Source: Micromonospora siamensis (GTDB lineage Bacteria; Actinomycetota; Actinomycetes; Mycobacteriales; Micromonosporaceae). From it: DNA of 64,000 bases. The stretch spans positions 1,488,001-1,552,000 of the forward strand of contig NZ_LT607751.1 in the NCBI RefSeq assembly GCF_900090305.1, given 5' to 3'. The notes under the pieces were generated by a model. The model was not told the origin of the DNA. It did no database searches and saw nothing but the letters and a program-made list of their open reading frames with translations. The position numbers and the translations under genes are program-made. Within the stretch, counting starts at the first letter, position 1. Each line of letters starts with the position of its first letter. Of this stretch, positions 47,959-51,045 are shown piece after piece.

Positions 47959-48294
47959 TCAGGCGACATTGAGCTGGATGTTGCCGATCCGGGCAACCAC
48001 CTCGACGTGCCCGCCGAGACCGGTCACGTACGCGCGGAGAGTCTCCAGGGTGGTGGTCTCCCCGTTCTCGATCTGGCTGATCCGCGCTTGCGAGAGGCCG
48101 GCCGCCTCCGCGAGCTGGGTCTGGGTCATGCCGAGCTGCTTACGGATCTCCGCCAACTGAGCGCCGCTGACAGCAGCGAGCATCTGTTCGCGCATCCGCC
48201 CGCGCCGGGCCACCCGGCCGGGTTCCTCCCAGGTCGGGTCCAACTCCCGGGCCTTCGCCTTGACGTCCCGCCAGTCCGATCCACCGGTCATCAT
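47959..48294 (-). CDS. HigA-like antitoxin, XRE family
   Basis: The protein has 111 residues. Helix-turn-helix IRKQLGMTQTQLAEAAGLSQARISQIENGETTTLETLRAYVTGLGGHVEVVARIG, the XRE DNA-binding domain typical of HigA. It starts ATGA-overlapping the toxin stop (48291-48294) and is therefore coupled to the toxin gene upstream. The N-terminal third (DWRDVKAKARELDPTWEE) probably contacts the toxin. It likely represses the operon through the palindrome at 48665-48681. Confidence 0.9.
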   Translation of the reverse strand: MMTGGSDWRDVKAKARELDPTWEEPGRVARRGRMREQMLAAVSGAQLAEIRKQLGMTQTQLAEAAGLSQARISQIENGETTTLETLRAYVTGLGGHVEVVARIGNIQLNVA

Positions 48295-48656
48295 TGAGCT
48301 TCCTTCAGGCTGGCCAGGTGCTCCTGGAACCGTTCATCCGCCAAGGGTATGGCCGTCCGGTACCAACTCTGCCACTGGCCGGACTTGTCTCCGGCGATGA
48401 GGAAGACCGCCTCCCGGAGCGGATCGAATGCGAAGATCATGCGTACCTCCGTCCAGCCGGTCGACCCGGGGCGCAGCTCCTTCATGTGGTGGAACAGGCT
48501 CCCCTTGAGGCGGTCGACCAAGGGCCGGCCCAGGGCCGGGCCGTGCTCGGAGAGCAGATCGATCGCTTCGCTGACCAGATCCGCAGTGACCGGGTCGGTC
48601 CTGCACAGACCAAGGAACCATGATTCGACCTCGGGATGAAGCCTGATGTCCCACAC
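48291..48656 (-). CDS. HigB-like RelE/ParE-family toxin
   Basis: The protein has 121 residues. It begins MWDIRLHPEVESWFLGL, then LVDRLKGSLFHHMKELRPGSTGWTEVRMIFAFDP with REAVFLIAGDKSGQW, the Gp49/HigB-type RelE fold; Arg and Lys residues in the central strands are consistent with mRNA cleavage on the ribosome. Toxin-first order is typical of HigBA. GTG 48656 lies 6 bases after TATATT, so the message is predicted leaderless. Function is inferred from fold and gene order. Confidence 0.9.
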   Translation of the reverse strand: MWDIRLHPEVESWFLGLCRTDPVTADLVSEAIDLLSEHGPALGRPLVDRLKGSLFHHMKELRPGSTGWTEVRMIFAFDPLREAVFLIAGDKSGQWQSWYRTAIPLADERFQEHLASLKEAQ

Positions 48657-48719: not shown

Positions 48720-49337
48720 TTAGTCGGCGGTGACCTCGGTGGGGGCGTTGCGGGCGGCGATCACCGTCATCGCCCACCCCGCCGCCGCGAACCCGGCCGC
48801 CGCCGCCGTCGCGATCAGCGCCAGCCGCCACGCCGACTCGGTCAGCGCCGTGCCGCCCAGGTGCCCGACCAGGGCGCCGTAGGTGGCCCAGCCGATCGCC
48901 GCGGTCAGCTCGTAGAGCACGAACAGGCGGTACGGGTAGCGGCTGCGGCCGGCCGAGAAGCAGGCCGCCATCCGGCCGCCCGGGACGAAGCGGCAGAGCA
49001 GGATCACCATCGGTCCGGGGCGGCGCAGGCCGCGGGTGACCCGCTTGGCGACCCGGCGGGCCCGGTTCGGCTCGGCGTGCCGGGGCAGCCGGCGGTCCGG
49101 GGCCACCCGGCCGAGCAGGTAGCAGGCCAGGTCGCCGACGAAGACGCCGAGCGCGCCGACCGCGATGGTGGTGGGCAGGCTGAGCCCGCCGTACACGGTG
49201 AGCGCGCCGCCGGTGATCATCACGACCTGGGTGGGCACGATCGGCACGAAGGCGTCCACCACGAGCAGGCCGAGGAGCAGCAGGTAGGCCCACGCCGGTG
49301 ACGCGACGTCAGTGAGTAATTCGGGCACGACTGCCAC
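48720..49337 (-). CDS. DedA family membrane protein
   Basis: The protein has 205 residues with four or five membrane segments. Seen: AYLLLLGLLVVDAFVPIVPTQVVMITGGAL, VFVGDLACYLLGR and the hallmark VILLCRFVPGGRMAACFSAGRSR (DedA R-F-x-P-G-R motif). DedA proteins act in undecaprenyl phosphate recycling or lipid flipping. ATG 49337. No neighbour suggests a special partner. Confidence 0.9.
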   Translation of the reverse strand: MAVVPELLTDVASPAWAYLLLLGLLVVDAFVPIVPTQVVMITGGALTVYGGLSLPTTIAVGALGVFVGDLACYLLGRVAPDRRLPRHAEPNRARRVAKRVTRGLRRPGPMVILLCRFVPGGRMAACFSAGRSRYPYRLFVLYELTAAIGWATYGALVGHLGGTALTESAWRLALIATAAAAGFAAAGWAMTVIAARNAPTEVTAD

Positions 49338-49682
49338 CTCGCCGGATCCGGCCGATCGAATGTGCCGAGCCTGCTCCCGTGTCCGCCGTCACGCTCGGCG
49401 GGGCCGGCCGGCGGTGACCACGGACACCACCCCGGGCCCCGATGACAACGACGCCGGTCGGTGCGGGGTGACGGGTGGTGACATGCCGACGCGTACCCGG
49501 AGCGGGCGGCGGATCGGCGTCCGTGCGCGTACCGTGGTGAGTCGCGCGGCCCACGCACGTCGGGTCCCCCGTTCCTGACGACGTGGCCGCCGCGGGTCGC
49601 CGGCAGGTCCCGTGCCGGCGACCCGCACCCAGCTCTCCGAAATTCGTTGCGCGGCTGGCGCCGCCGCGCCTACCGTCGCGGC
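49338..49682. other. Intergenic region between dedA and the ThrRS leader
   Basis: 345 bases, GC rich. Near its end is the leaderless promoter of the leader peptide. Otherwise I see only short low-quality frames and no RNA signature such as a T-box. Confidence 0.6.
49647..49676 (+). promoter_or_regulatory. Leaderless promoter of the ThrRS leader peptide
   Basis: TTGCGC (49647-49652), an 18-base spacer and TACCGT (49671-49676), followed by 6 bases and the leader ATG at 49683. Spacing fits transcription starting at or next to the A of ATG. Confidence 0.6.
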
Positions 49683-49736
49683 ATGTGCAGCGCGATGGTG
49701 ACCACGACGCCGGGTATCCCCGGCGCGCCGCACTGA
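49683..49736 (+). CDS. Thr-rich leader peptide (17 residues)
   Basis: The encoded peptide is MCSAMVTTTPGIPGAPH, with three consecutive threonine codons (49701-49709). Directly behind them GCCGGG/CCCGGC (49709-49714, 49719-49724) can form a small hairpin. The stop is 11 bases before a perfect 15-bp hairpin and about 97 bases before a threonyl-tRNA synthetase gene. The layout is that of ribosome-mediated attenuation: scarce charged Thr-tRNA would stall the ribosome on the Thr codons. No homology evidence was available; the peptide is a prediction. Confidence 0.62.
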   Translation: MCSAMVTTTPGIPGAPH

Positions 49737-49747
49737 CGTAACCGTCG

Positions 49748-49782
49748 ACGAGGCCCCGGGGCGAACCGCCCCGGGGCCTCGT
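49748..49782 (+). terminator. Candidate threonine attenuator hairpin
   Basis: A perfect 15-bp stem (49748-49762 with 49768-49782) and a 5-base loop GAACC. No U tract follows. The CCCCGG at 49718-49723 in the leader could pair with CCGGGG of the left arm as an anti-terminator. Confidence 0.65.
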
Positions 49783-49833
49783 GGCGTTCCGGGCCAGCTC
49801 GCCTCCGGGTCGTACCCGATCAAGGAGAGCGAC

Positions 49834-51045
49834 ATGATCGACCACCGCAGGCTCGGCCGGGAGCTGGAGCTGTTCGTCTCCGACCCGCTGGTGGGCGCCG
49901 GGCTGCCCATCTGGCTGCCGGCCGGCGCCGCCGCCCGGCACGCCGTCGAGGAGTACGTCCGCGACCTGGAGCGCCGGGCCGGCTACCGGCACGTGTACTC
50001 GCCGCCGCTGGGCAAACGGGAGCTGTTCGAGCTCTCCGGGCACCTCGGCTACTTCGCCGCCGACATGTTCCCGCCGATGCGGCTCAGCGCCGACGACGAG
50101 TTCGTGCTCCGGCCGGCGCTCTGCCCGCACCACGCGCTGGTCTTCCGGGCCCGCGGCCGCTCCTACCGGGAGCTGCCGCTGCGGATCGCCGAGATCGGCG
50201 GCATGTACCGGGCGGAGCGCTCCGGGGTGCTGGGCGGGCTGTCCCGGGTACGGGCCATCTCGCTCAACGACGCGCACAACTTCTGCGCCCTGGACCAGGT
50301 GGGTGAGGAGGTACGCGAGATCCTCCGGCTGATCGGCGAGGCGCACGCCGCGCTGGGCGTACGACCGGCCGGGTTCCGGCTGTCGCTGCGCGGGCCGGGG
50401 GAGAAGTACGTCGGCGACGACGCCCAGTGGGCGCGGGCCGAGGAGCTGCTCCGCGCGGCGCTCGACGGGGTGGCGTACACCGAGGCGCCCGGCGAGGCGG
50501 CGTTCTACGGCCCGAAGATCGACATCCAGGTCGTCGACGCGGCCGGCCGGGAGTCGACCATCTCCACCGTCCAGCTCGACTTCGACAAGCCGGAACGGTT
50601 CGACCTGTCGTACACCGCCGCCGACGGGAGCCGGCAACGGCCGGTGATGGTGCACCGGAGCCTGGTCGGCAGCATGGAGCGGCTCTTCGCGTACCTGATC
50701 GAGGTGCACCAGGGCGCGTTTCCGGTCTGGTACGCCCCGGTGCAGCTGGTGCTGCTCCCGGTCGACGACGGCCAGGCGGCGGCGGCCGAGGCGCTGGCCC
50801 GCCGGGCCGGGGCGGCCGGCCTGCGGGTCGAGGTCGACCACGGCGGCTCGTTGGGTGCCCGGGTCCGGGACGCGGCCCGCCGCCGCATCCCGTACGCCGG
50901 GGTGATCGGCGCCCGGGAGGCCGCCGCCGGCGCGGTCGCGCTGCGCCTGCGCGACGGGCGGTCCCTGCCCCCGATGCCCGCCGACGAGGCCCTCGCCCTG
51001 CTCGACCGGATGGTCACCACCCATTCCGCTGCCCTCCTGCCCTAG
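49834..51045 (+). CDS. Threonyl-tRNA synthetase, short form without TGS and editing domains
   Basis: The protein has 403 residues and starts directly at the catalytic core; canonical ThrRS has about 650 residues with TGS and editing domains first. Zinc ligands of the active site are all there: Cys in LRPALCPHH, His in SLNDAHNFC, His in [13 protein letters not shown]. Class II motif 2 MYRAERSG is also present. The C-terminal about 110 residues form the anticodon-binding domain ([17 protein letters not shown]). It should charge tRNA-Thr with no editing site of its own. AAGGAGAG lies 6 bases upstream of the ATG. Probably a second ThrRS, with the main one outside the window; a role in stress or antibiotic tolerance is possible. 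Confidence 0.88.

Follow-up and report, generated by a model that had tools for sequence, protein, structure and literature searches.

A conserved threonine leader with two hairpins before short threonyl-tRNA synthetase genes of actinomycetes, a probable ribosome-mediated attenuator

Micromonospora siamensis encodes two threonyl-tRNA synthetases (ThrRSs), and the locus described here raises the question of how the shorter one is controlled and to which signals it might respond. The window, i.e., the whole stretch of 64,000 nucleotides that was analysed, belongs to a 6.25-Mb one-contig genome and carries the leader locus on its + strand. The gene behind this leader, thrS2 (Table 1), had already been recognized as a short ThrRS in the preliminary description of the locus; its product matches TIGR00418, consists of the class II core and anticodon-binding domains and aligns to a solved full-length ThrRS from residue 242 on, and no TGS or editing domain was found in it by domain search. 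The second ThrRS, encoded elsewhere in the genome, is full-length, contains a SAD domain and shares 42% identity with it. A cyanobacterial ThrRS pair is the source of the idea of zinc paralogues among these enzymes (PMC9437257). Within the family, 135 of 200 genomes have a short ThrRS (E <= 1e-120), and in the window the neighbours of thrS2 are the VTT-domain gene on one side and ABC transporter genes on the other; because the gene is so widespread and has such neighbours, self-resistance to borrelidin or obafluorin is not favoured as an explanation. Adjacent Gp49-like and HTH genes on the - strand (window positions 47959-48656) form a probable toxin-antitoxin pair.

Between the divergent VTT-domain gene and thrS2, a promoter with the arrangement TTGCGC-18-TACCGT precedes a 17-codon ORF with three consecutive Thr codons, as the preliminary description had it, and its coordinates agree on re-reading. 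Nevertheless, two features were absent from that description, namely the GAAATT box of the promoter and hairpin 1, which starts inside the last Thr codon of the leader and overlaps it. The hairpin that had been placed 11 nt after the leader stop (here hairpin 2) does begin at this distance, but its stem comprises 16 perfect pairs around a 3-nt loop and not 15. The leader region is more stable than its shuffled versions (z -5.39; 0 of 200 shuffles as stable). In the window, Rfam gave no match at the gathering threshold, and up to E 1 it gave only four chance matches to microRNA families around the locus; with no covariance-model match, a T-box riboswitch or another known RNA family is not supported, and the absence of a canonical T-box, stated from the outset, is borne out.

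Table 1. Positions, in window coordinates, of the features around the thrS2 leader.
Feature	Position	Strand	Description and basis
VTT-domain gene	48720-49337	-	Divergent neighbour upstream of the thrS2 leader
WhiB7/WblC-type box GAAATT	49639-49644	+	2 nt 5' of the -35 element; sequence and cross-locus window test
-35 element TTGCGC	49647-49652	+	Sequence; TGCG columns weakly conserved
-10 element TACCGT	49671-49676	+	18 nt after the -35 element; 6 nt 5' of the leader ATG
Leader ORF MCSAMVTTTPGIPGAPH*	49683-49736	+	17 codons and TGA; frame test
Regulatory Thr codons ACC ACG ACG	49701-49709	+	Thr-run count over distinct loci
Hairpin 1 (protector)	49708-49725	+	Arm A CGCCGGG 49708-49714, arm B CCCGGCG 49719-49725
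Candidate antiterminator	49718-49761	+	CCCCGG 49718-49723 with CCGGGG 49756-49761; ensemble calculation, masked ribosome
Hairpin 2 (terminator-like)	49748-49782	+	Arm C 49748-49763, arm D 49767-49782; without U-tract
Possible third hairpin	49799-49832	+	CTCC 49803-49806 with GGAG 49824-49827; MFE structure
Shine-Dalgarno-like AAGGAG of thrS2	49822-49827	+	Sequence
thrS2, short ThrRS, 403 aa	49834-51045	+	Class II core and anticodon-binding domains

Upstream regions were taken from 115 of the 135 family genomes with a short ThrRS and from all 65 of the 393 class genomes with a match to it (E <= 1e-110), one of which (G260) is a full-length ThrRS. A first set of 148 distinct upstream regions, 141 of which contain an ORF with at least three consecutive Thr, was enlarged by 87 loci, and the window copy (L001), other synthetases of the same genome (L002-L004), the full-length ThrRS of G260 (L237) and two loci at contig ends (L233 and L242) were excluded before the usable loci were counted. 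As a control for Thr runs in the 148 regions, runs of the next residue, Arg, were found in 38, and runs of Thr on the reverse complement in two. The check set beforehand, that the ORF, its Thr codons and the hairpin be conserved before short ThrRS genes, was passed at 253 of the 254 usable loci, all with a leader carrying the Thr run. After merging of identical upstream sequences, these 253 loci gave 231 distinct ones (73 from contig records, 157 from genomes and one from the window), which are not distinct species, many being closely related, and many of the merged pairs were one place sampled twice. The sole exception, L160 (G184), keeps the promoter including the -10 element, the hairpins and a similar ORF, with a single Thr and the run lost. 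The leader was found from Micromonospora to Streptomyces, Kutzneria and Amycolatopsis, and direct reading places it before 63 of the 65 ThrRS matches of the class, the exceptions being G260 and a contig end (G331).

The leader peptides follow the pattern M-variable-TTTP-(G/D/E), with a VPAR ending in most Streptomyces and relatives, and the residues preceding the Thr run vary widely. Across the 231 distinct loci, the run comprises exactly three Thr in 222, two in eight (the NTTPG leaders of five Salinispora and L124, as well as L119 and L259) and four in one. Among the leader Thr codons only the third base varies. In a frame test based, for each locus, on the first ATG with TAnnnT 6-7 nt 5' of it, 219 distinct loci offer such an ATG and the other 12 of the 231 do not; in 218 of the 219 it shares the reading frame of the Thr codons. 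A TAnnnT motif 6-9 nt before the chosen start is found in all 231, with a scoring that favours such starts. The ORF with the Thr codons is leaderless as judged from the position of the -10 element, and, by all sequence signs, it seems to be translated.

The control codons show a bias towards ACG, which is used less than ACC for Thr. ACG occupies the three control places in 231, 223 and 160 of the 231 distinct loci; two places 5' of the hairpin proline there are 223 ACG, six ACC, one ACA and one ACT, and three places 5' of it, where 223 of 231 loci encode Thr, there are 160 ACG, 62 ACC and one ACT. Six ORFs of the window use 115 ACC, 27 ACG and one ACT (ACG 27 of 143). At the last Thr codon the bias is explicable because this codon pairs in hairpin 1, but this does not hold for the two codons before it. 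The 143 short-ThrRS genes compared (648 ACC, 13 ACG and six ACT) themselves nearly avoid ACG (13 of 667), although their own leaders use mostly this codon.

Both hairpins are conserved together with the ORF. Hairpin 1, with a stem of 6-9 pairs, is present in all 231 loci and begins 2 or 3 nt before the end of the Thr run in 210 of them, while hairpin 2 reaches at least 10 uninterrupted pairs in 180. In an alignment of 91 model matches (A3), two rows of which are wrong-strand matches and which leans towards the model structure, to which it was fitted, 91.0% of the cells of the two hairpins pair and 16 of 22 pairs vary on both sides. The covariation score was 0.287, compared with 0.118 (sd 0.006) for shuffled and 0.047-0.081 for slid alignments; both-sided changes occur in 13 of the 15 pairs of hairpin 2 and compensatory changes in three of the seven pairs of hairpin 1, the latter being found also in the genuine leaders L049, L248 and L078/L250/L251. 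A further alignment (A1) contains 85 of 86 representatives, with L154 left out. The locus thereby presents conserved hairpins between leader and gene, behind a leaderless ORF whose codons suit the amino acid of that gene, the arrangement of the actinobacterial leader-peptide elements thrL, trpL2 and leuL1 (PMC8079986).

A covariance model (R1), built from many of the loci that it then finds, scored the window leader at 81.2 bits and the next place in the same genome at 36.4 bits, and no other gene with a Thr leader was found in this genome. Among the 393 class genomes, R1 gave 66 matches of at least 50 bits by hand count, 61 of them in genomes with short ThrRS. Two more are leaders that are themselves intact but are followed by a truncated short ThrRS or by none (L297 in G571 and L310 in G410), apparent remnants after gene loss. 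The other three (L298-L300, from G417, G524 and G545) belong to one family without a short-ThrRS match and precede a full-length ThrRS, with the SAD domain confirmed for L298; in these, the full-length gene is preceded by the same Thr leader with its two hairpins. In 346 genomes of the phylum, all seven matches (E <= 1e-6) lie before short ThrRS, four of them checked directly and three known from the class search. Similar GC hairpins also occur elsewhere in these genomes: fifteen R1 matches without ThrRS, with scores of 29-48 bits, resembled GC hairpins lying at an open-frame end or close to one, and these could suggest that the ORF is accidental and the hairpin an ordinary gene-end terminator. 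Conservation, reading frame and covariation contradict such an accident, and the closest gene upstream for which a family match was obtained is encoded on the opposite strand, so that this explanation is extremely improbable.

With a probability of roughly 0.8, the leader is a ribosome-mediated transcription attenuator of thrS2, and on paper it works like the classical type. The mRNA would begin at the ATG of the 17-codon leader. When threonyl-tRNA is plentiful, the ribosome would reach the stop codon and cover arm B, so that hairpin 2 could form and transcription would end; without a ribosome, hairpin 1 would sequester arm B and hairpin 2 would form too. When threonyl-tRNA is short, the ribosome would stall on the Thr codons and cover arm A, and arm B, thus freed, could pair with arm C, which would block hairpin 2 and allow transcription of thrS2. 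The sequence signs support the attenuator reading of the preliminary description, and from them we infer its responsiveness to threonine.

The spacing of the arms fits classical ribosome-mediated attenuation when the modelled ribosome covers the RNA beginning 14 nt 5' of the P codon and ending 12 nt on, counted from the first base of the A codon. In this model, half or more of arm A is masked at every one of the 231 loci by a ribosome stalled on either the first or the last Thr, and with the ribosome on the last Thr 80% or more of arm B stays free, again at all 231. A ribosome at the stop codon would hide half or more of arm B in 216 loci, but not in the other 15, and would leave at least 80% of arm C free in 230. 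The proposal that the CCCCGG segment can compete for the left arm of hairpin 2 holds, since it can pair with CCGGGG of arm C. The ensemble of this B:C pairing, computed on the RNA as it would be before synthesis of arm D, has three or more expected pairs in 221 of the 231 loci when the ribosome stalls at the first Thr and in 201 when it stalls at the last (the other 30 have fewer), compared with two loci with a ribosome at the stop and eight without a ribosome. Part of this seems to follow from base composition: in the composition control, at least three B:C pairs were predicted in a fraction of 0.957 of the loci, compared with 0.900 after shuffling of C and 0.840 after shuffling of B, whereas at least 6.5 pairs were predicted in 0.749 of the loci and in about 0.40 of the shuffled ones. 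The B:C antiterminator is therefore a plausible structure, only partly beyond what composition gives. Moreover, at equilibrium the B:C pairing should lose out to hairpin 2 with its 16 GC-rich pairs, as the MFE fold, which shows hairpin 2, would also suggest, and therefore the switch must be kinetic.

The 8 nt that follow the stem of hairpin 2 contain 2.26 T on average, and five or more T in eight of 231 loci, and a terminator scan that requires a T-run gave no match at the locus. Because hairpin 2 has no U-tract, the strict class of Rho-independent attenuators is not claimed here. The same lack of a U-tract could mean that hairpin 2 does not terminate at all and that the leader instead controls translation of thrS2, with the third hairpin hiding the Shine-Dalgarno sequence. 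In Streptomyces and relatives, this hairpin has the form GTGGTC.CTCGC...GCGAG.GAGACCAC, with the Shine-Dalgarno sequence of thrS2 in the stem; in an alignment of 57 of 74 loci with Streptomyces-type leaders, three of the 57 coming from the family of the window, 80.4% of the cells of its 11-pair stem are paired, compared with 34-54% when slid. In addition, the region folds better than its shuffles (mean z -1.45, 225 loci), and the Shine-Dalgarno positions pair at 0.68, compared with 0.59 with shuffled spacers (212 of 231 loci). However, the fraction of Shine-Dalgarno positions paired is the same in both states of the switch (0.686 and 0.684, 213 loci), the covariation of the third hairpin is weak (0.164 compared with 0.139 shuffled) and RNAalifold returned no consensus stem for it, and control of translation in place of termination appears quite unlikely. 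As a part of the switch, the Shine-Dalgarno hairpin was rejected, since its pairing does not change between the states; if real, it would be a separate brake.

The promoter adds a second layer to the attenuator. In the published consensus of WblC/WhiB7 promoters, GAAAWY is followed by 3 bp, TKGMNN, 16-19 bp and TANNNT, with the start 7-8 bp further on (PMC7157823). The window promoter, GAAATT-2-TTGCGC-18-TACCGT with the A of the ATG 7 bp past the -10 element, is of this type; thus, the -35 and -10 elements of the preliminary description stood, and the box beside them had been missed. Across 230 loci (one of the 231 being too short), an AT-only tetramer lies in the box window in 170 and is missing in 60, compared with 0-13 loci in six shifted windows, and an exact GAAAWY is found in 65, compared with 0-1. 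Among the proteins of the window genome is a WhiB protein whose tail is AT-hook-like and which might bind this box. S. coelicolor thrS2, here matched to the window gene by its name, is named first among the representative WblC-activated synthetase genes (PMC7157823), and promoters of this regulon share with the window promoter the box by the -35 element, the 16-19 bp spacer, TANNNT and the start at 7-8 bp, while the gap between box and -35 element is 2 bp in the window and 3 bp in the consensus (PMC7157823); a leader of thrS2 is not mentioned in the main text of that paper. Through such a box, transcription of thrS2 would itself rise under translation stress, and the gene would probably have two inputs, translation stress at the promoter and shortage of threonyl-tRNA at the attenuator. 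Sigma-E is a possible further input, as SCO3778, a threonyl-tRNA synthetase, is among the sigma-E binding targets reported in ethanol-stressed cells (PMC10771440).

The type of this promoter, together with the description of wblC itself as attenuated by a uORF in the study that reports S. coelicolor thrS2 as WblC-activated (PMC7157823), might also suggest that the leader is a general sensor of translation stress, like the uORF of wblC/whiB7, in which the Thr run is merely an effective stalling sequence and any antibiotic-stalled ribosome on the leader opens thrS2. This is unlikely, however: the Thr codons are kept by coding, as their variation in the third base alone indicates, while the preceding residues vary widely, and the product of thrS2, by its family, charges tRNA-Thr. 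Moreover, the three genomes in which the same Thr leader serves a full-length ThrRS (L298-L300) have no AT-only tetramer at the box position.

Attenuation by Thr codons in a leader peptide is the logic of the Thr_leader family of Rfam, which belongs to the gammaproteobacterial thrABC operon. That element differs from the present one in operon and organisms, and no Rfam match was obtained at the window locus. Within Actinobacteria, the classical attenuators of the trp operon, ilvB, trpS and leuS likewise combine cognate codons with competing hairpins and also stand before tRNA synthetase genes (PMC1262725). Seliverstov et al. (2005) surveyed the synthetase operons of Actinobacteria and reported Trp, Cys and Leu/Ilv structures and ileS T-boxes, the other pathways being without conserved structures, and the survey as consulted names no Thr element (PMC1262725).

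The closest relative in print is thrL (SLIV_19412) of S. lividans TK24, a leaderless ORF upstream of thrS (SLIV_19410) with the peptide MKRVRPFLETTPGFVPAR* (PMC8079986, Droste et al. 2021), so that the earlier remark that no described Thr leader was known for this class of ThrRS needs correcting, a thrS gene with such a leader being in print. Like the window leader, thrL is leaderless, has a Thr run with Pro next and thrS behind it, and its peptide ends in VPAR before the stop; its one hairpin lacks a U-tract, as hairpin 2 does here, and it has two Thr where the window leader has three (PMC8079986). The gene behind it, thrS (SLIV_19410), is a putative short ThrRS. Termination at thrL is called unclear by Droste et al., whose account of it, as far as consulted, includes no cross-genus comparison, first hairpin, antiterminator or WhiB7-type box (PMC8079986). 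Leaders of the thrL kind precede a short ThrRS in S. phaeofaciens (L112), whose peptide MQRAQPFLTTTPETVPAR closely resembles S. lividans thrL, and in S. tropicalis (L104), Streptomyces sp. NRRL F-5122 (L100) and Streptomyces sp. AP-93 (L105). The metL leader of metNIQ in S. lividans contains TTTPGAR (PMC8079986), which is very like the core of the Thr leaders, and it may be worth re-examining whether the metL leader belongs to methionine. The type of mechanism and one printed instance, S. lividans thrL (PMC8079986), are therefore already known. In the literature searched, which covered few subscription journals, no other description of such a Thr element was found, nor were its wide conservation, detailed anatomy, covariation, ACG bias and pairing with a WhiB7-type promoter.

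A more far-reaching reading, which is doubtful, would see in the locus a stress switch with two inputs whose purpose is to supply an editing-less ThrRS, through WhiB7 on the promoter, an attenuator tuned to ACG and regulated mistranslation. WhiB7 would activate the promoter in translation stress, and read-through would occur only when the threonyl-tRNA for ACG is short. If this were true, induction of the editing-less enzyme could raise the misincorporation of serine for threonine and thereby aid intrinsic antibiotic tolerance.

For the attenuator itself, the set of 231 distinct sequences, together with the covariance model, provides an annotation rule for an element without an Rfam match here. 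The locus links a WhiB7-type promoter, as employed under antibiotic stress, to an attenuator specific for an amino acid, and the question of why the WhiB7 regulon contains tRNA synthetases becomes directly testable. The findings suggest how many actinomycetes may reserve a second, editing-less ThrRS, which would be released when charged tRNA-Thr is short.
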